Source: an uncultured Ectothiorhodospiraceae bacterium
GTDB taxonomy: Bacteria > Pseudomonadota > Gammaproteobacteria > Nitrococcales > Nitrococcaceae
Length of the DNA stretch: 64,000 bases
Direction of reading: 5' to 3'
Assembly: GCA_913057145.1 (NCBI GenBank)
Contig: CAJXNJ010000005.1
Coordinates: 1 to 64,000, forward strand
A program made the position numbers and the translations under genes. Positions 243 through 26,651 of the stretch are shown here, piece by piece. The notes under the pieces are model-generated. The model was given only the letters and a program-made list of their open reading frames with translations. It made no database searches and was not told the DNA's origin. Numbering within the stretch: position 1 is the first letter of the stretch; each line of letters begins with the position of its first letter.

Positions 243-1004
243 ATGGATCTGGCTTCACTGAGTCTCGGGCAATATGAATTTATTGCCAATGCCTTCTCGT
301 TTGGGCTCGCGGTCATGGCCGCAGCGACGCTGTTCCTCTGGTTTTCTCGCAGTCATGTGGCACCCGCGTACCGCATGGCCGTGACGATTTCCGGTCTGGT
401 GACGGCAATCGCCGCCTATCACTATCTGCAGATCATGCTGTCCTGGGACGCCGCCTTTGCGGTAACAGGCAGCTCACTGGAAGTAACGGGCTCTCCGTTC
501 AACCAGGCCTATCGTTACGTGGACTGGCTGCTGACCGTCCCGCTGCTGCTCATCGAGCTGATCCTCGTCATGCGTCTTTCGCGTGATGAAACCGTCTCGA
601 AGAGTGTCTGGCTGGGTGGTGCCGCTGCGCTGATGATCATCCTCGGTTACCCGGGTGAGGTCGCAGAAGAGGCCGGCACACGTTTCACCTTCTGGGTGCT
701 GTCGATGATTCCGTTCATCTACATCGTCTACCAGCTGGTGGTTGGCCTGAAAGGCTCGATCAACAAGCAGCCTGAGAACGTTCGCGGTCTCATCAATGGC
801 GCCGCGACCCTCGTGGTGATCTCCTGGCTGTTCTACCCGATCGTCTTCCTCTTCCCGCTGATCGGTTTCACCGGCGGCGCAGCCATCACGGCCGTGGAAG
901 TGGGCTACACGATTGCGGATATCGTCGCCAAGGCGGTCTTCGGCATCCTCATCCTCGCGATTGCCATTCGCAAGTCCGAGGCAGAGGGTGGCGCACAGGC
1001 CTAA
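243..1004 (+). CDS. Light-driven proton-pumping microbial rhodopsin (proteorhodopsin/xanthorhodopsin superfamily)
   Basis: Seven-TM protein with helix C RYVDWLLTVPLLLIEL (D94/T98/E105), helix B AYHYLQIM (H60), helix G GYTIADIVAK (D226/K230 Schiff-base lysine). Confidence 0.96.
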   Translation: MDLASLSLGQYEFIANAFSFGLAVMAAATLFLWFSRSHVAPAYRMAVTISGLVTAIAAYHYLQIMLSWDAAFAVTGSSLEVTGSPFNQAYRYVDWLLTVPLLLIELILVMRLSRDETVSKSVWLGGAAALMIILGYPGEVAEEAGTRFTFWVLSMIPFIYIVYQLVVGLKGSINKQPENVRGLINGAATLVVISWLFYPIVFLFPLIGFTGGAAITAVEVGYTIADIVAKAVFGILILAIAIRKSEAEGGAQA

Positions 1005-1020
1005 ACGGCGGTGCACCCTA

Positions 1021-1041
1021 CCCCGCCTGAATCAGGCGGGG
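1021..1041 (+). terminator. Hairpin ccccgcctga-a-tcaggcgggg downstream of rhodopsin
   Basis: Perfect 10-bp inverted repeat 17 nt after the rhodopsin stop. Confidence 0.6.
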
Positions 1042-1049
1042 TTCCATAG

Positions 1050-1080
1050 AACCTGCCGGCGCCATGTGCCGGCAGGTTTT
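1050..1080 (+). terminator. Rho-independent terminator/attenuator between rhodopsin and crtE
   Basis: aacctgccggc-gccatgt-gccggcaggtt followed by TTTT: 11-bp GC-rich stem plus U-tract. Confidence 0.7.
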
Positions 1081-1117
1081 CCAACGGCCCAGCATTGAGG
1101 TGACTCAATTGGCCACG

Positions 1118-2014
1118 ATGGATGTCAGAAACCCGACAATAATGGCTCGCCCTGGCATCGCCTCTCTCAACGCGGTTGATCAGCGCATGATGCAGATCGT
1201 GCAGTCGACAACCGATAGTCCGGCTCGCGATGCTGCCATCTACCACCTGCAGACCGGTGGGCAACGCATGCGTGCCAAGCTGGCTCTCGCCAGCGCTTCA
1301 ATTCAGCTCCAGCCAGATGACGCCGTGACGGCGGCAGCGGCTTGTGAGCTACTGCATAACGCCTCGCTGATTCATGACGATATCAGCGACCGGGATACCT
1401 ATCGCCGTGGGCAGGAGACCGTTCGCGCACGCTTCGGTGAAGACATCGCGCTGTGCGCCGGCGATCTGCTCATGGCGCTTAGCTTTCAGACGGCCCTTGC
1501 CATCGAGGACCGGGAGCGGGGTGCCGCCCTGCTCGCTGCGCTCAGTGACTGTGCCGCGCGGGTCATCGGTGGCCAGAGCGTCGAACTGGGCTGTCAGACA
1601 GCCGGCAAGCGCGTCCCGCTGGCCACCTACCTCGCGGCAACCCGTGCGAAAACCGCACCGCTCATTGAGCTTGCGATCGGCATCGGCCTGCCCGAGAGCC
1701 AGAAACCAATGGCCAGACGACTTGGTGAGGCCATCGGACTGGCCTATCAGATCCTCGATGATCTGGATGACCTCAGCCACAGCGAAGAACGCCCCGTTCA
1801 CAACGCGCATCTGCATCCCTTGCATGCCATATTCCATCACCGGGATGGCCAGGGTTGTCTGAAACATGCCCAAGCGGCGCTGGCACGGGCCGCCAGAGAC
1901 CGGCAGGCGCTACCCGATCCGCTGGCAAACGCCGTCGAAGGGCTACTCGAGAAACTCCAGGCAAAAGCGACACAGCACCAGACTGCCCCGCTTACCGTTA
2001 CAACCGAGGTTTAA
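1118..2014 (+). CDS. crtE: Geranylgeranyl diphosphate synthase (polyprenyl synthetase)
   Basis: LIHDDISD and QILDDLDD aspartate-rich motifs. Track start 1064 lies inside the hairpin; ATG at 1118 has GAGGTGA upstream. Confidence 0.9.
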   Translation: MDVRNPTIMARPGIASLNAVDQRMMQIVQSTTDSPARDAAIYHLQTGGQRMRAKLALASASIQLQPDDAVTAAAACELLHNASLIHDDISDRDTYRRGQETVRARFGEDIALCAGDLLMALSFQTALAIEDRERGAALLAALSDCAARVIGGQSVELGCQTAGKRVPLATYLAATRAKTAPLIELAIGIGLPESQKPMARRLGEAIGLAYQILDDLDDLSHSEERPVHNAHLHPLHAIFHHRDGQGCLKHAQAALARAARDRQALPDPLANAVEGLLEKLQAKATQHQTAPLTVTTEV

Positions 2015-2018
2015 GCAC

Positions 2019-3491
2019 ATGAATACTGTTGTCCTCGGTGGTGGCTTCGGAGGCATCGCGGCGGCTCTGCGTCTTCGGGCAAGGGGCCATGAGGTCACCC
2101 TGATTGACCGCTGCCCGCGGCTTGGCGGCCGCGCTCAGGTCTTCGAGCATGAGGGGTATCGACACGATGCCGGGCCAACGGTCATCACCGCGCCCTTTCT
2201 GTTTGCGGAATTGTTTGCGTTATTCGGCGAGACACTGGCCGATCACGTAACCCTCAAGCCTCTCGACCCCTGGTATCGATTCCGCTTTCCCGATAACACG
2301 CATTTTGACTACGGCCCGGGTATTGAGCGCATGGAAGCGGAAATCGCCCGCTTCAACCCGGATGATGTGGCCGGCTATCACGGACTGCTCGCCGAGTCTA
2401 AAGCGCTCTTTGATATCGGGTTCAAGGAACTCGGTGATCAGCCCTTCCATCGCGCCGGGTTCATGGTCCGTCAGGTCCCCCGGCTTCTGAAGCTGCGCTT
2501 CGACCGCAGTGTCTGGGATATGGTATCGAGCCATATACAACATCCCTATCTGCGTCGTGCGCTGTCACTACAACCCCTGCTGGTCGGGGGAAATCCGTTC
2601 GATACCACCTGTATTTACGGCCTGATCCATTATCTGGAGCGCGAATGGGGCGTGCATTTCGCCATGGGCGGCACCGGAGCACTGGTGGATGCACTCGCCG
2701 GCCTGCTCGAGCGTCATGGTGTACAGGTAGAAAATGGCCGTAGCGTCGTTGCCTTGAGACGCGAGGGCCGACAGGTGCGCAGCGCTTTGCTCGATGACGG
2801 CCGCGAGCTGAATGCCGAGAAATTTGTCTCCAATCTGGACCCCATGCACCTCTACGGAGAGCTGCTCGACCGGCCCCCGCTGGCCTCACGGATCAAACGC
2901 GGGCTTGCGAAGACCTCCATGGGGCTTTTCGTCCTCTACTTCGGGACGGACCGGCAGTACCCGGATATCGCACACCATACGATCTGGCTTGGTGAACGCT
3001 ACAAGGAACTGTTGCGGGATATTTTTGACCGCCAGGTCCTCTCGGACGACTTCTCGCTGTATCTGCACCGGCCCACAGCCACCGATCCGAGCTTTGCTCC
3101 GGACGGACACGATAGCTTCTACGTGCTCGCGCCGGTCCCCAATCTGCAGGCGGACATCGACTGGCAGACCGAAGGCCCGCGGCTGCAGCAACGAATCATC
3201 GAGGCACTGGAGGCCTCGATCATGCCGCATTTGAGTGAGCATGTCCGGGCACCCTTTTACATGACACCGGAAGATTTCCGCAGCCAGTATCAAAGTGTCC
3301 ACGGCAGCGGCTTCAGCATCGCGCCATTGTTCCGGCAGTCCGCCTGGTTCCGGTTTCACAACAAAGCCGAGGGACTGGATAACCTGTATCTGGTTGGAGC
3401 CGGGACTCACCCGGGCGCCGGGCTGCCTGGCGTTGTCTCGAGTGCCAAGGTGCTTGATCGACTGATCACGCCACCAACGGAGGCGGCATGA
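2019..3491 (+). CDS. crtI: Phytoene desaturase
   Basis: N-terminal VVLGGGFGGIAAALRLRARGHEVTLIDR dinucleotide fold; C-terminal VGAGTHPGAGLPGVVSSAKV. ATG at 2019. Confidence 0.95.
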   Translation: MNTVVLGGGFGGIAAALRLRARGHEVTLIDRCPRLGGRAQVFEHEGYRHDAGPTVITAPFLFAELFALFGETLADHVTLKPLDPWYRFRFPDNTHFDYGPGIERMEAEIARFNPDDVAGYHGLLAESKALFDIGFKELGDQPFHRAGFMVRQVPRLLKLRFDRSVWDMVSSHIQHPYLRRALSLQPLLVGGNPFDTTCIYGLIHYLEREWGVHFAMGGTGALVDALAGLLERHGVQVENGRSVVALRREGRQVRSALLDDGRELNAEKFVSNLDPMHLYGELLDRPPLASRIKRGLAKTSMGLFVLYFGTDRQYPDIAHHTIWLGERYKELLRDIFDRQVLSDDFSLYLHRPTATDPSFAPDGHDSFYVLAPVPNLQADIDWQTEGPRLQQRIIEALEASIMPHLSEHVRAPFYMTPEDFRSQYQSVHGSGFSIAPLFRQSAWFRFHNKAEGLDNLYLVGAGTHPGAGLPGVVSSAKVLDRLITPPTEAA

Positions 3492-4297
3492 CACCCAGCG
3501 AGGTCCTGGCCCGCCATGGCAGCAGCTTCCACATGGCCGCTCGCGTGCTCCGCCGCCAGGATGCCGCTGATATCGCGATTCTGTATGCCGCCTGTCGTTT
3601 AATCGATGACCTCGCCGACGAGCAGACGGGACAGGCAGGACGGATTCACACAATCATGGAGGCTTTGCGCAACGGTGAGCCCGAAGCGGTGCCCATCGAG
3701 GGGTTTGCTGAGATGAGCCAACGCCGGCAGCTTGCGCTCAAGCCGCTTGCCACACTCGCCGAGATGGCCTGGAAAGAGGCTCAGGCGCCGCAACAGATTG
3801 CCGATGAAGATGCGCTCATTGACTACTGTTACGCCGTTGCAGGGACCGTCGGTGAGATGATGTGCCCACTACTCGGCGCCGATCCGATCCGCGGCCGCGA
3901 AGCGGCAATCGCGCTTGGCATCGGCATGCAACTCACCAACATCTCCCGTGATGTGCTTGAAGATGCCGAGCAGGGACGCCGCTATCTACCCGGAACCTGG
4001 GTGGGAGATATCAGCCCGGCACTCATTGCCGAGGCAAGACCCATCAATCGCGAACCCGTGCGAAGCGCCATTCGCAGGACCGTCGATCTGGCCGAGACCT
4101 ACTACAAGCAGGCGGAGAGCGGTTTTTCACTCATTCCCTTTCGCAATCGCCAGGCGATTCGGGTGGCAACGGGCCTCTATCGGGCCATCGGACTGCGTGT
4201 GGTGGAGCGTGGCTGTCGATACTGGGAAGGCCGCGTCTCGCTCGATCAGGGCGAGCGCGCCCGACTGGCGCTGACCACCCTCACCCGGATTGCATGA
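3488..4297 (+). CDS. crtB: Phytoene synthase
   Basis: AACRLIDDLADE and LTNISRDVLEDAEQGRRYLP motifs; ATGA overlap with crtI. Confidence 0.95.
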   Translation: MTPSEVLARHGSSFHMAARVLRRQDAADIAILYAACRLIDDLADEQTGQAGRIHTIMEALRNGEPEAVPIEGFAEMSQRRQLALKPLATLAEMAWKEAQAPQQIADEDALIDYCYAVAGTVGEMMCPLLGADPIRGREAAIALGIGMQLTNISRDVLEDAEQGRRYLPGTWVGDISPALIAEARPINREPVRSAIRRTVDLAETYYKQAESGFSLIPFRNRQAIRVATGLYRAIGLRVVERGCRYWEGRVSLDQGERARLALTTLTRIA

Positions 4298-5421
4298 AGA
4301 CATTCGATCTTGCTTTTATCGGCCTCGGGGCAGCCTCACTGAGCCTGGCCACCCGACTGGCCAATAACGGCTATGGAGGCAGCGCGGTTTTTATCGACCC
4401 CGCCCCCGAGGCCGTTGACGAGCGCACCTGGTGTGGCTGGGGCCTGATTGATCATCCCTACCAGGCCGCGCTGACCCGACAATGGCATTGCTGGCGTGTT
4501 GGCAGTGCTGCCGCCATGAGCCGCTCAGGTCACCCCGATATTCCCTATGAAATGCTCCGAGGCTCAGCCGTCCGCCGTCTCTCCATGCAGTCCATTGCAT
4601 CGCGTCGGGACTGGGAAGTCCTCACGCCGGCCGCCGTTATGGCTGAGAAACGCGAACAGGGCACCTGGTGCCTTGAGCTGGATGATGGCAGCACGGTGCA
4701 GGCGAAAATGGTGCTCGACTCGCGACCACCCAGGCTTTCTCTGCAGCGGCCATGGCTGTGGCAGAGCTTCTATGGCATTGAAATCAAAGGCGAAGATTTT
4801 GGTGCCGATGACTGCGTCAATCTCATGGAACTGGTGGAAGATGATGCCCCGCTGGTGAATTTCTTTTATGAACTGCCCATCACCCGTGACCAGCGACTCA
4901 TTGAATTCACGCGCTTTACCCCGGAGAAGCCTGACATGGAAGACCTCAAAGCCCGGGTTGAGCAGCGTCTTGCCGAGCGCGGCTGGCAGCAGGCGCAGGT
5001 GGTTCGCACCGAACAGGGGCATTTACCAATGGCACCGATTGCAGCGCAGACTCATGAACAATGGATCGCCATCGGTACGGCCGGTGGCAGCATGCGCCCT
5101 GCCACCGGTTATGCCTTTCACGCCATACAAAGCTGGGCCGATGAGGCGGCCGGCCAATTAATGGCCGGAACGCCGCCCTCACCACCTTCCCGCTCCAGAA
5201 TCCTGGATTGGCTTGATGGCGTATTTCTCGAGTCCCTCTGGCTTGAGCCCGAGGCCGCCGCCGGCCGTTATCGCCAACTTTTTGAGAAAACCCCGCCCGC
5301 GGCGTTAACCCGATTCTTAATGTCCCGGCCACGGCCGATTGATATACTAAAGGTACTGCTGGCATTGCCCGTAAGCCCGATGCTCAGGGCCGCCTGGCAC
5401 CACGGTTGGAGGCGCTCATGA
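4294..5421 (+). CDS. crtY: Lycopene beta-cyclase
   Basis: FDLAFIGLGAASLSLATRL nucleotide fold, DERTWCGWG; crt operon position; ATGA overlap. Confidence 0.92.
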   Translation: MKTFDLAFIGLGAASLSLATRLANNGYGGSAVFIDPAPEAVDERTWCGWGLIDHPYQAALTRQWHCWRVGSAAAMSRSGHPDIPYEMLRGSAVRRLSMQSIASRRDWEVLTPAAVMAEKREQGTWCLELDDGSTVQAKMVLDSRPPRLSLQRPWLWQSFYGIEIKGEDFGADDCVNLMELVEDDAPLVNFFYELPITRDQRLIEFTRFTPEKPDMEDLKARVEQRLAERGWQQAQVVRTEQGHLPMAPIAAQTHEQWIAIGTAGGSMRPATGYAFHAIQSWADEAAGQLMAGTPPSPPSRSRILDWLDGVFLESLWLEPEAAAGRYRQLFEKTPPAALTRFLMSRPRPIDILKVLLALPVSPMLRAAWHHGWRRS

Positions 5422-6281
5422 AAGAAACCGCACACCCACCGGCTTTCTGGCTGTTCCCGATAGGCATTGTCATTGCACTGGGTGCATCGGCCATGCCGGG
5501 TGAATGGCCCCTCTACATCGTGCTGGCGATCAGCACAGCCATTCTCGGCCTGCCCCATGGCAGCCTTGATACTGCTGTTGCCAAACAGCATCTCAACCTC
5601 AGTACGCCGGTGAGACTGGGCGCGTTCTTCGCCGGGTACATGGCGCTCGGGGCCTTGGTGTTGGGTTTCTGGCTGGTCGCACCGAATATCGCGCTGGCGG
5701 CGTTTCTTCTCTATTCAGCCGTGCATTTTGGTGATGATGTCGCGCAACGCCTCGGGCGATTTGGCGGCACGGGTTACGGGTTGTGGATCCTTGGACTCCC
5801 GGTGGCCTTCCAGGCAGAGCAGGTCCTGCCGCTTTTCGAGATGCTTGGAGCCACGCAGGCCGAGCAGATTGTTGCTGCTGCGCCCTGGGCGCTCGGCATT
5901 GGCGGCGGTCTGCTCACCGCCGCGCTGATAACCCGGAAAGAGCGCGCCATCAGTGACTGGCGCGACCCACTGCTACTCATTCCGGCAGCGGCCCTGCTGC
6001 ATCCGCTGGCCTATTTCATCGCCTATTGGTGTTTTCTTCACAGCCCGAGGCACCTCGAGCTCGCCGCGCGCGATCTGGGCATGAACAGCTGGCGCGAGAG
6101 GCTCAAGGCCGTAGCACCGACAACGCTTGCAACCTATGCGCTGGCGCTGGCCGCTGTTCCCTTTCTTATCGGCCTCCCTACCGATGCCGCACTGATGCGC
6201 ATCATCTTCATTGGCCTCGCCGCGCTCACGGTTCCGCATATGCTGCTTGAGTTTATTGCCAGCCCCAAACGCGCGGCTTGA
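5418..6281 (+). CDS. blh: Brp/Blh-family beta-carotene 15,15'-dioxygenase (retinal-forming)
   Basis: Membrane protein with LPHGSLD, SAVHFGDD, FLHSPRHLE, PHMLLEF histidine motifs; ATGA overlap with crtY. Confidence 0.92.
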   Translation: MKETAHPPAFWLFPIGIVIALGASAMPGEWPLYIVLAISTAILGLPHGSLDTAVAKQHLNLSTPVRLGAFFAGYMALGALVLGFWLVAPNIALAAFLLYSAVHFGDDVAQRLGRFGGTGYGLWILGLPVAFQAEQVLPLFEMLGATQAEQIVAAAPWALGIGGGLLTAALITRKERAISDWRDPLLLIPAAALLHPLAYFIAYWCFLHSPRHLELAARDLGMNSWRERLKAVAPTTLATYALALAAVPFLIGLPTDAALMRIIFIGLAALTVPHMLLEFIASPKRAA

Positions 6282-6309: not shown

Positions 6310-6339
6310 GCCAACGGCTGAAGAATTCAGCCGTTTGGC
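6310..6339 (+). other. Stem-loop between blh and the next operon
   Basis: gccaacggctgaa-gaa-ttcagccgtttggc; 9-bp perfect inner stem extended with one bulge; no clear U-tract. Confidence 0.45.
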
Positions 6340-6416: not shown

Positions 6417-7775
6417 ATGCAATTCTCAAAATGGGGTGATGGCAGCAATCTGTGTGTGCTGGGCGAGGACCGGCTGGAGGGGCTGGTTATCACCCATCTG
6501 GAGTCCGCCGTCCTGCTCGAGGCCGCGATGACGCAGCGCTCGGATCCTCGATACGGCATTTATCCGCTTTATGCCACCCGCCCGCGGCAACAACCCGATG
6601 AGATAACCAGCGCGGTGCTTGATCATCTGCTCGATGGCTATGTCGAGACCGCGGAGGCCGCTGGCACTGCCGCACGCACGCTCTGGTCAGGGATCGCTCA
6701 ACAGACCGACCTGCCAATCGATACACCGGATGCGAGACTGTTGAGTTATCTCACCCTGCGCAGGGGATACCAGCTTGCGCCGGTGCGTGACTGGCGCAGC
6801 CGTGAGCTTTATCGCTACCCGCTGCTTGAGGCCTTTGGCGCGAGTGCCGACGGCGAGTTGCTGGGTCTTCTCCAACAACGCGGAATGCTCCGGCGGACAG
6901 GCCTTATTGAACGCCTGCGCCTCTGCCCGGCCTGCCAGGGTGCACATCTGCTCTTCGTCGATGCCTGCCCCAACTGCCATGGGCTCGAGATTGAGGCGGA
7001 TGAGTCCATTCACTGCTTCACCTGCGGCCATGTGGCCAGTCAACGCGCATTCTCTTTAGCAGGCGGGCTGCAGTGTCCCAACTGCCGGGCGCGTCTGCGC
7101 CATATCGGCACCGAATACGACCGGCCACTTGAACATCATCACTGCAAACGCTGTGCCGAGCGCTTTACCGAGGCCGAGGTCATTACTCACTGTGGCATCT
7201 GCGAGCATGAAAGCCGCCCGGAGCTGCTCATAACGCGCGAAGTGGGCCGCTATGAAATCACAGAATATGGCCGTATCCGTGTTCTGAACCAGGACATCAG
7301 CACCCCCCTGGTGAGCGTTGAACGCAATGGAAGCCTTCACCCCCAGGTCTTTGAGCAACTCCTCGGCTGGCAATCCGAGATCGCCGCGCAGCATCCGGAA
7401 TGTCATTTCACACTGCTTCACATCCAGCTGGAGCATCTTGAGGAAACGGGCAGCCGGCTCACCCCGGAGGCCGCCTCTCGGCTTCTGCGCATGCTCAGCG
7501 AGCGCCTTCCCAGCCTGGTTCGACCCGGTGATGTCTGCACTCGCACGCAGTCGGCGGATTTCTGGGTACTGATGCCACAGGCCGATCCAACGGCCACCAA
7601 GGCACTCATCGAGCAGTTACAGGCGCTCTTTGAGGCAAGCGATGAGCTGCGGGCAGCGAATCTGCGATTCAGTGCGCGAGCGCTCGAATCCGGCCACACC
7701 TCACTCACCGAGACAAGCGGCAATGCCCTGATGCAGAAACTTGCCGAGCAGTCGGAGGAAGTGCTGCATGCTTGA
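6417..7775 (+). CDS. Zinc-ribbon protein (TackOD1-like) with C-terminal degenerate GGDEF domain
   Basis: Six CxxC motifs (CPAC, CPNC, CFTC, CPNC, CKRC, CGIC) then a GGDEF-like fold RPGDVCTRTQSADFWVLMP. TackOD1 assignment is from memory of domain layout. Confidence 0.7.
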   Translation: MQFSKWGDGSNLCVLGEDRLEGLVITHLESAVLLEAAMTQRSDPRYGIYPLYATRPRQQPDEITSAVLDHLLDGYVETAEAAGTAARTLWSGIAQQTDLPIDTPDARLLSYLTLRRGYQLAPVRDWRSRELYRYPLLEAFGASADGELLGLLQQRGMLRRTGLIERLRLCPACQGAHLLFVDACPNCHGLEIEADESIHCFTCGHVASQRAFSLAGGLQCPNCRARLRHIGTEYDRPLEHHHCKRCAERFTEAEVITHCGICEHESRPELLITREVGRYEITEYGRIRVLNQDISTPLVSVERNGSLHPQVFEQLLGWQSEIAAQHPECHFTLLHIQLEHLEETGSRLTPEAASRLLRMLSERLPSLVRPGDVCTRTQSADFWVLMPQADPTATKALIEQLQALFEASDELRAANLRFSARALESGHTSLTETSGNALMQKLAEQSEEVLHA

Positions 7776-9066
7776 GACTCTGCTTTATCAACCACTCTAC
7801 CCGGCCCTGATCCGCCCCCTCTTTCCGGTGCTCATGACCATTGAGCTGCCACTGTATATGCTCATCCTCACCGGGATTCTGCGCTACCGCATGGATGCAA
7901 GGCGCTTACCACTTGTCCCCGCGGACAGCGCCCCCCTGGTGAGCTGCATCATCACCTGCTACAGCGAGGGGGATGCCGTCCGACGCACGGTTGAAGGGCT
8001 GGTAAACCAGATTTACTCCGGGCCGATTGAGATTCTTGCCGTTGTTGACGGCGCGGACCGCAACCACCACACCCTTCAGGCACTGCAGCGGGTGCGCCCC
8101 CAACTCCCGCTCTCCTCCCAACGCACCCTCAAGATCATTCCGAAATGGCAACGCGGCGGCCGGGTGTCCTCTTTGAATACCGGTTTGTCGCTCAGCCGGG
8201 GCGAGATTGTCATGGCGCTCGATGGCGATACCAGCTTTGACAACGACATGGTGGCGACCGCCGCGCGGCATATGCGCAATCCCAATGTCATTGCCCTCAC
8301 CGGGACACTGCGTGTGAGAAATCGACAAGCCGGAATCTGGACTCGACTGCAGGCGCTCGAATATCTCATCGGACTGGTGGCAACCCGAACCGGGCTGGGT
8401 GCTTTCAACGTCATTAACAATGTCTCCGGTGCTTTCGGCATTTTTCGCCGGGAAGCCCTGATCCGCGTCGGTGGCTGGGAATGCGGCACCGCTGAAGATC
8501 TGGACATGACGCTGCGGCTGAAAAGGCATTTTGCCCGTCATCCCGAATACCGCATCGAATTCGCGCCGACGGCCATCGGCCATACCGACGCGCCTGCAAG
8601 CTTCACCGAGCTACTCAAGCAAAGACTGCGCTGGGACGGGGATCTTTACTACATGTATGCCCGCAAACACCGCAGTGCCATCTCACCGACGATGATTGGC
8701 TGGCGCAATACCATTGCAACCCTGTGGTACGGACTGCTGCATCAGATCGTCCTGCCTTTCGCCATTGCCCTTTACTTGCTCTATCTGGCCCTGACCTATC
8801 CGGCTGTGAGTGTCGTCATCGGCCTTGCCGTGGTCTATGTCATCTACCTGCTCATCACGGTCGTGATGACCGTCTTTGCCCTCGGGCTGCTCTCAGAGCG
8901 ACGCAAGGCGGATATGCCGCTTTTACTGCTCACACCCCTGTACCCCATCTACCGCGGCGTCATGCGCTTATGGGCGGTTGTCGCCATTCTCGCGGAGATC
9001 GTACTGGATCAGCACAAGGATTCGACCATGGCCCCCTGGTGGGTCCTGAAAAGGAGTCAGTATTGA
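7768..9066 (+). CDS. Processive family 2 glycosyltransferase (BcsA/PgaC/NodC-like membrane synthase)
   Basis: N-terminal TM, VDGAD, ALDGDTSFD (DxD), GTAEDLD (ED), LKQRLRWDGDL (QxxRW), several C-terminal TM segments. Confidence 0.92.
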   Translation: MLETLLYQPLYPALIRPLFPVLMTIELPLYMLILTGILRYRMDARRLPLVPADSAPLVSCIITCYSEGDAVRRTVEGLVNQIYSGPIEILAVVDGADRNHHTLQALQRVRPQLPLSSQRTLKIIPKWQRGGRVSSLNTGLSLSRGEIVMALDGDTSFDNDMVATAARHMRNPNVIALTGTLRVRNRQAGIWTRLQALEYLIGLVATRTGLGAFNVINNVSGAFGIFRREALIRVGGWECGTAEDLDMTLRLKRHFARHPEYRIEFAPTAIGHTDAPASFTELLKQRLRWDGDLYYMYARKHRSAISPTMIGWRNTIATLWYGLLHQIVLPFAIALYLLYLALTYPAVSVVIGLAVVYVIYLLITVVMTVFALGLLSERRKADMPLLLLTPLYPIYRGVMRLWAVVAILAEIVLDQHKDSTMAPWWVLKRSQY

Positions 9067-10409
9067 TGTCTTTCCTTCCACGCACACTGGTTTGCCTGAC
9101 AGCCCTGCTGCCCGTCGCCAGCCCGTTATTCGCGGCTGAAGAGCCGGTCATTGAGCGGTCGATGCTCGAGCAGCAACTGGTGCACTCACCACTCGCCCAA
9201 TCGGCCCGGAGCGATGTGCAGGTTGTTGAAGAACAACGCCAACAGCGCTCGGCAGAAACCGGCTGGAGAGCTTTTGGTGCACTGAATGCCGCTGCGCTGA
9301 ACGAAATCGAAGGAGAGGATAATCGTCGTTATGACCGTCTTCAGGGTGACATCGGACTCCGGCATCCGCTGCTCGGCAGCCAACGCGCCGAGCAAGAGGC
9401 AGTGCTGGATCTCGAGCGGCTGCAATTGCGCACTCAAGGCGAAGCGGATGCACGCATCGAGCAGCTGGCCGTCGATTTACGAAAACGCTATGCCGATTAC
9501 TGGCTCAATGAGCGTTTACAACAACTCAGTGAGGACTGGCTGCAAACGGCCGAACCTGAGTTAAGGAAGCTTTCCGCGCAATCAGGCCGCACGGTACTCA
9601 ACAGTGAATTTGCCGCGTTGGCCTCAACCGTTGATCAGGCTCGCGTCGACCGGCAACAGGCCACCGCGGCGCGTGAGGCTGCAAGGCGCGGCATGGAGGC
9701 CTTGCTCGGGCAATCCATCAGCGCTTTCCAGGCTGTCTGGCCGGGCAGTGATGCCATCTGCCGCAGTGAGCCTGATATTCGCAATGCCATCTGGAGGCAG
9801 GACCCCGAAATAAGGGCGCTGAAGGCGGAACTCGCCGTACTCATCGAACAGGGCGGGTATCGCTTTAGTGATGAAATCAACTCCAATCTCACGCTGACGC
9901 ACAGTCAGATCCTCGAGGAATGGGATGATCGCGGTCATGAGACCAGTATCGGTCTCACCGCCGAGATGCCCATCGCGGTGGCAAAGGCGCATGATCATCG
10001 CACCGCCTGGCGTAATGCCCAGATCCTCCAGTTGCAGCGTCGCCTGGAGGTCGAACGTCAGGCAGCGGTTGCGATGATTGCCGGGACGATCGCCCGCCTG
10101 CAGGCCACAAGCGCAGCAAGAACGGCCACTGAGAACCGATTACGGCGCGCTCATTACACCTGGGTTGAATCACGAGAGCGTACCCGGGCATCAGTCAACA
10201 CCAATCCACTCCTGCCCCTTGCGCAGAGTGTGAATTGGTATCAAACGGCCCGTGAGCGCCTGCAGCAGGAGGCCGAGTGGCTGCGCGCACGCGCTGAGCT
10301 TGAAGGTATACGAACGCCTGAATGCCCGCCCAGCCTTGCAACCGCGCCTGAAACCGCATGGCTGACACCCCTGCCACCAACAACTCAGCCAATTGAGTCG
10401 CCCCAATGA
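9066..10409 (+). CDS. TolC-like outer-membrane efflux/channel protein
   Basis: Signal peptide MSFLPRTLVCLTALLPVASPLFAA followed by long coiled-coil segments; position between GT2 and HlyD. Confidence 0.75.
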   Translation: MSFLPRTLVCLTALLPVASPLFAAEEPVIERSMLEQQLVHSPLAQSARSDVQVVEEQRQQRSAETGWRAFGALNAAALNEIEGEDNRRYDRLQGDIGLRHPLLGSQRAEQEAVLDLERLQLRTQGEADARIEQLAVDLRKRYADYWLNERLQQLSEDWLQTAEPELRKLSAQSGRTVLNSEFAALASTVDQARVDRQQATAAREAARRGMEALLGQSISAFQAVWPGSDAICRSEPDIRNAIWRQDPEIRALKAELAVLIEQGGYRFSDEINSNLTLTHSQILEEWDDRGHETSIGLTAEMPIAVAKAHDHRTAWRNAQILQLQRRLEVERQAAVAMIAGTIARLQATSAARTATENRLRRAHYTWVESRERTRASVNTNPLLPLAQSVNWYQTARERLQQEAEWLRARAELEGIRTPECPPSLATAPETAWLTPLPPTTQPIESPQ

Positions 10410-11536
10410 CCATGAAGATCAACTTCCAGGGTCGAGGCCTCGCGGCGGGGCCGGATGGTCTACCCGTGCGCTATGGGCCGGCGCGGCGCAGTATCCCGCG
10501 ACTGCGCTGGTTGCTTGTCATCCTGATTGCCTCAAGCCCGCTGATCTACGTCCTCTGGCTTCTGCTTCGCGGCGGCCTGGTTGTCGATGCCGCCGGCAGA
10601 CTCACCTATGAAACCCTGCGAGCCGGGTCCGTGGTCAGTGGTGTGGTCGAACAGGTTCTCGTCGAAGAGAACGACAGCGTGCGCACGGGGACTCCCCTCA
10701 TCCGCCTTGAGAATCCTGAGATTCGCGGCCGGCTTGCCCACTTACAACAGGAGCTCAGTCGACTCGAGGTGGAACAGAACACCGCCAGGGAGCGCGCCGA
10801 GCGGGAACTCACAGCAATCAATCAGGAAATTGAAACACTGCAAAGACTGATCAGCGCCGAAGATCAATGGCTCAGACGCCTGGATGAACTCACGACAGCG
10901 GGGCTTGCCACCGAGCGCGAGCAATACCAGGCCGCCGCGGAAGGTCAGAAAACACGGCGGCAATTAATCGAGGCACTGCACCGGCGCAGTGATCTGGAGC
11001 GCATCCGCAGCCAGGGCGATATCAACCTCAGGACCCGAGAAGAAGAACTTCGACTGGCTATAGATATTGCACGTAACAATCTGAATTATTTACTTATTAA
11101 GGCGCCCTCTGACGGTGATATCGTAGCGCTTCAGGCCGAGCCGGGGGACACCGTCGGCCCCGGCAGCACCCTGTTGACCATGACACGCCCTTCCGAGCCG
11201 GAGCTCATCGCCTATCTACGCCCATCCGATGGCGGCTTTGCCCGTCAACACAGCCGTGTGAAAGTGCGTCTGCCGGATGGCAGCCATATCAACGGCCAGG
11301 TGGCAGAGCGCCCGAGACTGACCGGGCGCATTCCCGCCGCCATACAGTCCATCCTTCAGGAATCAAGTGCTGCGCTGATGGTAAAAATCGCCCTCGTGGA
11401 ACCGGTACCGCAGCCAATGGCCATTCATGGCCTGCCGGTGCGCGTTGAATTTGCCCGCGGCCCCTCGGTCGCACTGTCACGCATGCGTTTCCCCAGTGCC
11501 ATTGCCGGACAATCCGATGCCAACGCGTTACAGTAG
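10406..11536 (+). CDS. HlyD/membrane-fusion-protein-like periplasmic adaptor
   Basis: Single N-terminal TM, split biotinyl-lipoyl halves (AGSVVSGVVEQVLVEENDSVRTGTPLIRLENPEI ... IKAPSDGDIVALQAEPGDTVGPGSTLLTM) around a coiled coil. Confidence 0.88.
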   Translation: MTMKINFQGRGLAAGPDGLPVRYGPARRSIPRLRWLLVILIASSPLIYVLWLLLRGGLVVDAAGRLTYETLRAGSVVSGVVEQVLVEENDSVRTGTPLIRLENPEIRGRLAHLQQELSRLEVEQNTARERAERELTAINQEIETLQRLISAEDQWLRRLDELTTAGLATEREQYQAAAEGQKTRRQLIEALHRRSDLERIRSQGDINLRTREEELRLAIDIARNNLNYLLIKAPSDGDIVALQAEPGDTVGPGSTLLTMTRPSEPELIAYLRPSDGGFARQHSRVKVRLPDGSHINGQVAERPRLTGRIPAAIQSILQESSAALMVKIALVEPVPQPMAIHGLPVRVEFARGPSVALSRMRFPSAIAGQSDANALQ

Positions 11537-14367
<2,831 letters not shown>

Positions 14368-25775: not shown

Positions 25776-26651
25776 TTACCCTCTTTGCTCGAGGTAGCGC
25801 CGGAACGCAGGCCCGAGCTCAGGATGCTGCAATCCGTATTCCACAGTGGCCTGCAGATAGCCGAGCTTATCGCCACAATCATAGCGGGTTCCGGCAAACT
25901 CATAGGCAAGGACCGGCTCATCGGCAAGCAACGCAGCGATGGCATCGGTGAGCTGAACCTCGCCACCGGCCCCCGGCTGGGTCTCACGCAGCTTCTCGAA
26001 GATGCGGCCGCTGAGAATATATCGGCCCACCACACCCAGGTCGGAAGGTGCCTGCTGCGATGAGGGCTTCTCGATAATGCCCTTGACCTGGTTGACACGG
26101 GAGTCCACCGGCTCGACATCAACCACCCCGTAACGATCGCTGTGTTCAGCAGGTATCCGCTGCACTCCGACAATGCTCGCATGGTGTCTGTCAAACTGCT
26201 CGACCATTTGCGAGATACAGCCACCATGATCGCCGTCATCAATCAGATCGTCGGCGAGAATAATGGCAAAGGGCTCATTGCCCACGACGGGTTCGGCGCA
26301 AAGCACCGCATGCCCCAGACCGCGCGCCTCCGGCTGACGGATGTAGATACAGGCTACTTCCGGCGGAATGATCTCGCGCACCGTCTCCAGCCGCTCGAGC
26401 TTGTCGGCCTCAAGCAGTTCGGTCTCCAGCTCATAAGCCTTGTCAAAATGATCGGGAATACTGCGTTTATTGCGCCCGGTCACAAACACCAGCGTGTCGA
26501 TACCGGCCCGCACGGCCTCTTCGGCGGCATACTGAATAAGGGGTTTATCAACGACCGGCAGCATTTCCTTCGGATTGGCCTTGGTTGCCGGCAGGAAACG
26601 TGTCCCGAGCCCGGCCACAGGAAATACAGCTTTGCGGATACGCCTTGTCAT
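25776..26651 (-). CDS. galU: UTP-glucose-1-phosphate uridylyltransferase
   Basis: AVFPVAGLGTRFLPATKANPKEMLPVVDKPLIQYAAEEA. Confidence 0.97.
   Translation of the reverse strand: MTRRIRKAVFPVAGLGTRFLPATKANPKEMLPVVDKPLIQYAAEEAVRAGIDTLVFVTGRNKRSIPDHFDKAYELETELLEADKLERLETVREIIPPEVACIYIRQPEARGLGHAVLCAEPVVGNEPFAIILADDLIDDGDHGGCISQMVEQFDRHHASIVGVQRIPAEHSDRYGVVDVEPVDSRVNQVKGIIEKPSSQQAPSDLGVVGRYILSGRIFEKLRETQPGAGGEVQLTDAIAALLADEPVLAYEFAGTRYDCGDKLGYLQATVEYGLQHPELGPAFRRYLEQRG

Follow-up and report, generated by a model that had tools for sequence, protein, structure and literature searches.

A unit of four genes was analysed in a 64,000-nucleotide stretch of DNA from an uncultured Ectothiorhodospiraceae bacterium (assembly GCA_913057145.1, contig CAJXNJ010000005.1, positions 1 to 64,000), here called the window. 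All four genes lie on the forward strand. The first (6417..7775, 452 aa) encodes a regulator with an N-terminal alpha/beta domain, a TackOD1 zinc-binding region (C170..C262) and a degenerate C-terminal GGDEF-fold domain, and the second (7768..9066, 432 aa) a processive family 2 glycosyltransferase (GT2), a polysaccharide synthase with at least three transmembrane (TM) segments and the subfamily signature QRxRWDGD. The third (9066..10409, 447 aa) encodes a TolC-like outer membrane channel with a signal peptide and without the C-terminal barrel found in relatives, and the fourth (10406..11536) a periplasmic adaptor of the HlyD/membrane fusion protein type with a single N-terminal TM helix (about residues 36–54) and a cytoplasmic N-terminus of the form MKxxF..G..Y.PxKR..W. 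Pfam analysis identified TackOD1 (3.7e-57) and GGDEF (2.9e-7) on the first open reading frame (ORF), GT2 models on the second, and HlyD_3 and HlyD_D23 on the fourth.

An earlier reading of the window from its letters alone (the sequence-only reading) had described four overlapping ORFs at these positions, and they were recovered as described, with only small corrections of start codons. The GT2 start codon (ATG, 7768) overlaps the stop codon of the regulator gene (7773–7775) by 8 nt, with a Shine-Dalgarno-like GAGGAAG present, and the ATG of the TolC-like gene (9066) has its A in common with the GT2 stop codon TGA (9064–9066), with AGGAG upstream. The first ATG of the HlyD gene (10406) overlaps the stop codon of the TolC-like gene by 4 nt. 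A second ATG at 10412 (M3), which would leave a 2-nt gap after the TolC-like gene, is the start conserved among relatives (95%) and probably the family-conserved one. No ABC or RND gene is present inside the four-gene unit, as had been noted before.

A GT2 scan of approximately 85,000 species genomes yielded 192 relatives. The 80 best loci were read, and 65 of these were complete, with enough flanking DNA on both sides. The genes of the TackOD1 protein, the GT2 and the HlyD adaptor were adjacent and co-directed in all 65 complete loci, which excludes chance, and the gene set was found in Pseudomonas, Vibrio, Comamonadaceae, Desulfobulbales and Synergistota. With the channel denoted by its family name OEP, the gene order was TackOD1-GT2-OEP-HlyD in proteobacteria and Desulfobulbales, TackOD1-GT2-HlyD in Vibrio, Photobacterium and Pseudoalteromonas, and OEP-HlyD-TackOD1-GT2 in Synergistota; the linkage thus survives rearrangement. 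The first of the outcomes that the sequence-only reading had named as refuting it, an unconserved linkage, was accordingly not observed. The sequence-only reading had proposed that all four genes belong together. This holds for TackOD1, GT2 and HlyD, which form the core of the family, but the channel is variable and its gene falls outside the invariant core, being absent from Vibrio-type loci and reduced to a glycosidase-like tail in the Pseudomonas fluorescens group. The divergence of the three core proteins was correlated (r 0.95–0.97), a value without correction for species relatedness that was not taken as proof.

The reverse search from TackOD1 in 369 gammaproteobacterial genomes produced 17 strong matches, 15 of which adjoin GT2 and HlyD genes, one of them (L124) in fragments. 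TackOD1 genes without GT2 or HlyD were present in L113 and also in L127, the latter a weaker second match in a genome with a full cluster elsewhere. When inspected by eye, the former (L113:9124-10512) adjoins a PhoB/PhoR/Pst-like set and the latter (L127:9117-10463) a PAS-type sensor, and TackOD1 therefore has other uses as well. Among single records, the Pseudomonadales metagenome-assembled genome HKST-UBA236 has two copies of the cluster (L039 and L042), one with the barrel fusion and one without. A Methanomethylovorans record (L103) and a Synechococcaceae record (L091) contain clusters that resemble the Synergistota type and the Pseudomonas type, respectively, and are probably mis-binned contigs.

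The window has the membrane-bound processive GT2 with DxD, ED and QxxRW motifs and TM segments that synthase-dependent systems require. The signature residues recognised by the sequence-only reading (DxD at 161–163, ED at 252–253 and QRLRW at 294–298) and D103 were nearly or fully invariant among 95 homologues, the middle L of QRLRW varying. The best-scoring named glycosyltransferase model was PgaC_IcaA, with 138 bits against a cut-off of 422. No match to CelA was found for the window GT2, and its relatives reached 15–24 bits against a cut-off of 699. In the tree, the GT2s of the family formed a single clade (support 98/93) apart from Escherichia coli PgaC and five true PgaC proteins; two loci had been entered twice under other names, leading to three label changes, and the clade support allows for the duplicate rows. 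The clade also has the motif QRxRWDGD (or DRS), whereas most PgaC proteins have QRxRWAQG.

In the regulator, TackOD1 (PF18551) scored 193 bits against a cut-off of 32. Its CxxC/HxxC motifs are conserved, and the cysteines and histidines are nearly all invariant across homologues. TackOD1 was described in archaeal response regulators as an output domain of obscure function (PMC5847659). The AlphaFold model of residues 1–298 had a pLDDT of 90.9, and a Foldseek search with the N-terminal model gave weak CheY-type and scattered matches (E 0.13 and above); for this part the predicted fold is described here only as alpha/beta, then zinc ribbons. A match to BcsE at rank 35 of the same search was not counted as evidence.

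The sequence-only reading had interpreted the protein as a zinc-ribbon/GGDEF sensor. Both domains are present, but the catalytic motif is not: QSADF replaces GGDEF in the window, and GG(D/E)EF was found in none of the 89 regulator homologues. Judged from these residues, the domain is not an active diguanylate cyclase. The window protein has RPGD at 369–372, and this RxxD motif (R369, D372) is kept in 82 of the 89 homologues, exactly five residues before the lost motif. RxxD is the I-site with which the dead-GGDEF proteins PelD and BcsE bind cyclic di-GMP (c-di-GMP) and so control the secretion of Pel and cellulose (PMC7439463, PMC8461298). The domain of the window protein looks like a c-di-GMP receptor, and control by c-di-GMP appears likely for the family and uncertain for the clade of the window. 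The genome of the window, which is 86% complete, encodes only one further GGDEF protein, in which GGEEF is intact, and no PilZ protein was detected in it.

The best conserved 20-residue block of the adaptor comprises residues 21–40, including the invariant W35. The most conserved stretch is therefore not in the lipoyl or barrel part but at the cytoplasmic N-terminus, directly ahead of the TM helix. Because this cytoplasmic end is conserved, the adaptor is suggested to have a cytoplasmic or membrane partner, which in the operon may be the GT2 or the TackOD1 protein. The conserved end of the adaptor, the dead GGDEF domain with its surviving RxxD and the barrel fusion of the relatives were not part of the sequence-only reading.

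No Pfam or NCBIfam name was obtained for the TolC-like protein of the window. Its earlier identification is nevertheless supported by its relatives, since these match OEP PF02321 (L031 4.8e-8, L068 2.1e-8) and align with it over nearly the full length. In 30 of the 65 complete loci the channel carries a C-terminal barrel as a fusion, and in two, which constitute the window's own clade, it occurs without the barrel, giving 32 loci with OEP altogether. The barrel was found neither elsewhere in the window genome nor in the genomes of nine barrel-less relatives, and the clade of the window has lost it. A locus of the P. fluorescens group (L080:9245-10096) encodes a signal peptide and the barrel, and L090 (9154-11367) still the full fusion with a similar signal peptide; this suggests that the channel part was lost from the group by internal deletion.

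The barrel domain (34 sequences) was modelled as a (beta/alpha)8 barrel with a pLDDT of 95.1. Invariant or nearly invariant residues are situated at the strand ends: D113-x-E115 after strand 4, H151-x-R153 at strand 5, M180-x-Y182 at strand 6, S210-x-E212 at strand 7 and Q251 at strand 8. The DxE at strand 4 and the MxY at strand 6 occupy the positions of the GH18 motifs. GH18 chitinases, O-GlcNAcase and SleL were among the best Foldseek matches. The full GH18 motif DxxDxDxE was not found in the barrel, the sequence reading FxGLHLDLE, and no Pfam or NCBIfam glycosidase model matched it, so that it was recognised by its fold. The model thus points to a probable glycosidase that is GH18-like without being a member of GH18. 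A profile search against PDB gave a putative GH97 protein as the sole match (8.7e-5), which was weak, covered a third of the barrel and was not relied on. The C-termini of TolC proteins are periplasmic, and a fused enzyme would therefore lie next to the route by which the polymer leaves. In other synthase systems, BcsZ, AlgL, PgaB or PelA has a comparable periplasmic place, and a putative glycosidase tied to the exit channel would fit a glycan cargo.

The most economical reading of these results is a GT2-HlyD-TolC conduit, because the processive GT2, the adaptor and the TolC-like channel form a conserved unit without a pump. In the window, dedicated periplasmic and outer-membrane export parts are in the same operon as the synthase. 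The four-gene unit is probably a synthase-dependent exopolysaccharide system with the GT2 in the place of the pump. The GT2 would polymerise a nucleotide sugar at the cytoplasmic face and pass the chain outwards through a membrane channel of its own, as is established for the processive GT2 class. The adaptor would dock on the synthase with its TM helix and the conserved cytoplasmic N-terminus ahead of it, and bridge the periplasm to the TolC-like channel, through which the chain would leave; in lineages without the channel gene, a channel encoded elsewhere would have to serve. The TackOD1 protein may be a soluble switch, in which the zinc-ribbon module and the dead GGDEF domain, binding c-di-GMP at RxxD, permit synthesis in the manner of PelD and BcsE. 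In the many relatives that have it, the GH18-like barrel on the channel may trim or release the polymer in the periplasm. That the family constitutes a widespread, undescribed class of polysaccharide secretion, with a GT2 at the position of an efflux pump, an HlyD adaptor, a TolC-type channel often with its own glycosidase and a zinc-ribbon/dead-GGDEF switch, is a proposal to which we give an even chance.

Several observations speak against the conduit or parts of it. The product of the GT2 is not readable from homology, as the PgaC model remains far below its cut-off. The barrel occurs alone with a signal peptide and without the channel in 20 of the 65 complete loci (mostly from the P. fluorescens group, L108 being cut by the contig end), and 13 loci have neither channel nor barrel. 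Against glycosidases, the barrel reaches TM-scores of only about 0.5, and it matches isocitrate lyase and other TIM barrels equally well. The nearest relatives, L031 and L032, are without the Arg of RxxD, and c-di-GMP control may be fading in the clade of the window. The window genome also encodes other HlyD and OEP proteins, so the adaptor or the channel could be shared with a pump. Such sharing, together with the absence of OEP from part of the family, would agree with an arrangement in which the adaptor and the channel work with an ordinary ABC, MFS or RND pump from another locus, the GT2 produces a glycan that is unrelated or lipid-linked, and regulation is the only reason for the shared operon. 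This we consider unlikely, as HlyD accompanies the GT2 and TackOD1 in every complete locus, across phyla and in two gene orders. The adaptor also scores far below the cut-off of every curated pump-adaptor model, its cytoplasmic tail is conserved family-wide, and no recurrent pump gene was found in the loci, ABC-signature ORFs appearing in only eight of them and in scattered places (by a motif screen for ABC and RND, which was not a family search and did not include MFS).

A known polymer could also come from a PNAG (Pga) or cellulose machine that has diverged and exchanged its export parts. PgaC_IcaA is indeed the best-scoring named glycosyltransferase family, and the glycosidase neighbours of the barrel and PNAG hydrolases both act on GlcNAc-type substrates. 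However, the PgaC_IcaA score is less than a third of its cut-off, the GT2 clade is separate from true PgaC in both tree and motif, and the unit has no gene of the PgaA, PgaB or BcsB/C/Z type, which makes this explanation quite improbable. The regulator alone is concerned by another view, compatible with the conduit, according to which the TackOD1-GGDEF protein is a metal- or redox-responsive switch and RxxD a structural relic. In its favour, no part of the regulator is more conserved than the cysteines and histidines of TackOD1, archaeal TackOD1 proteins act as outputs of response regulators with an obscure function (PMC5847659), and the Arg of RxxD is missing from two of the relatives nearest to the window. 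On the other hand, the Arg and Asp of RxxD rank with the best conserved residues in a domain whose catalytic signature is gone, and PelD and BcsE offer a precedent for c-di-GMP binding (PMC7439463). A metal or redox switch is accordingly a possibility to be taken seriously, at somewhat below an even chance.

The sequence-only reading had regarded a GT2 acting as the transporter of a tripartite conduit as undescribed. The conserved pump-less unit supports the conduit, but the concept was preceded by XcsA-XcsB-TolC (PMC12430437), Alg8-Alg44 (PMC8461298) and BgsA-BgsB (PMC9495663). The XcsA-XcsB-TolC conduit was proposed for the cellulose of cyanobacteria (Thermosynechococcus) by Maeda et al. 2018, as reported in a 2025 review (PMC12430437). 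As outlined there, an inner-membrane GT2, an HlyD-like adaptor and a TolC-like channel would likewise form a tripartite conduit without a pump, and XcsC is a glucanase. According to the review, the model is without experimental validation, the parts are not in one operon, and whether operon-organised clusters work like XcsAB-TolC is an open question (PMC12430437). In the window, by contrast, the parts are in one operon, the GT2 is without PilZ and outside the CelA family, the regulator is a TackOD1 protein with a degenerate GGDEF domain, and the channel of many relatives carries the fused glycosidase-like barrel. The system thus resembles XcsA-XcsB-TolC by architecture and, with no match to CelA, is not a member of it as far as sequence comparison can tell.

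In the alginate system of Pseudomonas aeruginosa, which is also under c-di-GMP control, the GT2 polymerase Alg8 is contacted by Alg44, a single-TM partner with a periplasmic membrane-fusion domain (PMC8461298). By analogy, this is the nearest tested precedent for the putative contact between adaptor and GT2, although Alg44 carries a cytoplasmic PilZ domain and alginate is exported through AlgK/AlgE and not through a TolC-like channel. BgsA and BgsB of the mixed-linkage beta-glucan system of Rhizobiales are also a GT2 and an HlyD-domain protein in one operon (PMC9495663), but this operon is bicistronic, without a TolC-like gene, and c-di-GMP binds the C-terminus of BgsA. PelD and BcsE share with the window regulator a dead GGDEF domain in which the RxxD I-site is preserved, and are c-di-GMP receptors for polysaccharide secretion (PMC7439463, PMC8461298); PelD has TM and GAF parts and BcsE an ATPase-like part and a degenerate REC domain, whereas the window regulator has the TackOD1 zinc ribbons before its GGDEF domain. 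With PNAG PgaABCD the system has in common that PgaC is the nearest named GT2 family, but besides the low score no PgaA, PgaB or PgaD was seen in the unit and the export parts are different. Type I secretion and EmrA-type efflux adaptors have the same HlyD/membrane fusion protein fold and a TolC-like partner, but here the GT2 has the operon place of the pump, no ABC or RND pump being linked according to the motif screen, which did not include MFS.

No description of the TackOD1-GT2-OEP-HlyD gene set, its one-operon conduit, the TackOD1 regulator or the channel-glycosidase fusion was found in the open-licence literature, and a subscription paper may exist. What is new is that the operon is conserved and widely distributed, that the channel is fused to a glycosidase-like barrel and that the regulator has a dead GGDEF domain; the concept of a GT2-adaptor-channel conduit itself had already been proposed for another lineage. 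If the proposal is correct, a GT2-HlyD-TolC conduit would here be seen for the first time in a single conserved operon, with a distribution over at least three phyla. The operons occur in Pseudomonas and Stutzerimonas relatives that are easy to grow and genetically tractable, which makes the operon question of the review directly testable, and TackOD1, of obscure function (PMC5847659), gains a cellular context. A biofilm-type polymer with a matching glycosidase is predicted.

An unbranched polymer of N-acetylhexosamine or hexose is the most likely product. There are hints of N-acetylhexosamine, because PgaC is the nearest named glycosyltransferase family and the glycosidase neighbours of the barrel in PDB are GH18 and O-GlcNAcase. 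UDP-sugar 4-epimerase genes were found a few bases downstream of HlyD on the same strand in 11 Pseudomonas loci (L047, L052, L054, L069, L079, L080, L082, L085, L089, L099 and L109; at about 11200-12170 in most). In L058, L074, L076, L097 and L100, several of which are from Comamonadaceae, the operon is flanked by true GalE genes distinct from these. Since the epimerase linkage is independent, with distinct copies in the two lineages, it suggests a galacto-configured donor sugar in Pseudomonas and Comamonadaceae. In the window itself, a GalU-like UTP-glucose-1-phosphate uridylyltransferase at 25776-26651, identified by eye, could supply UDP-sugar.

Rfam and promoter scans of the operon region gave nothing useful. 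Directly upstream, at 243-6281, are a rhodopsin-like protein (by eye), carotenoid genes and a beta-carotene 15,15'-dioxygenase (PF15461), which form a cluster of the retinal/proteorhodopsin type. These genes are separated from the operon by a hairpin and 135 bp. The hairpin, read from the sequence on the forward strand (6313..6335), is a perfect 10-bp one, AACGGCTGAA-GAA-TTCAGCCGTT, without a T-tract. It was not among the terminators listed by the terminator scan and is a possible transcriptional boundary. A link between the operon and the carotenoid/retinal genes was considered and rejected: other genes are found upstream in the nearest relatives L031 and L032, and the downstream SDR and uvrB genes are also present in L031, so the operon is independent of the carotenoid genes.

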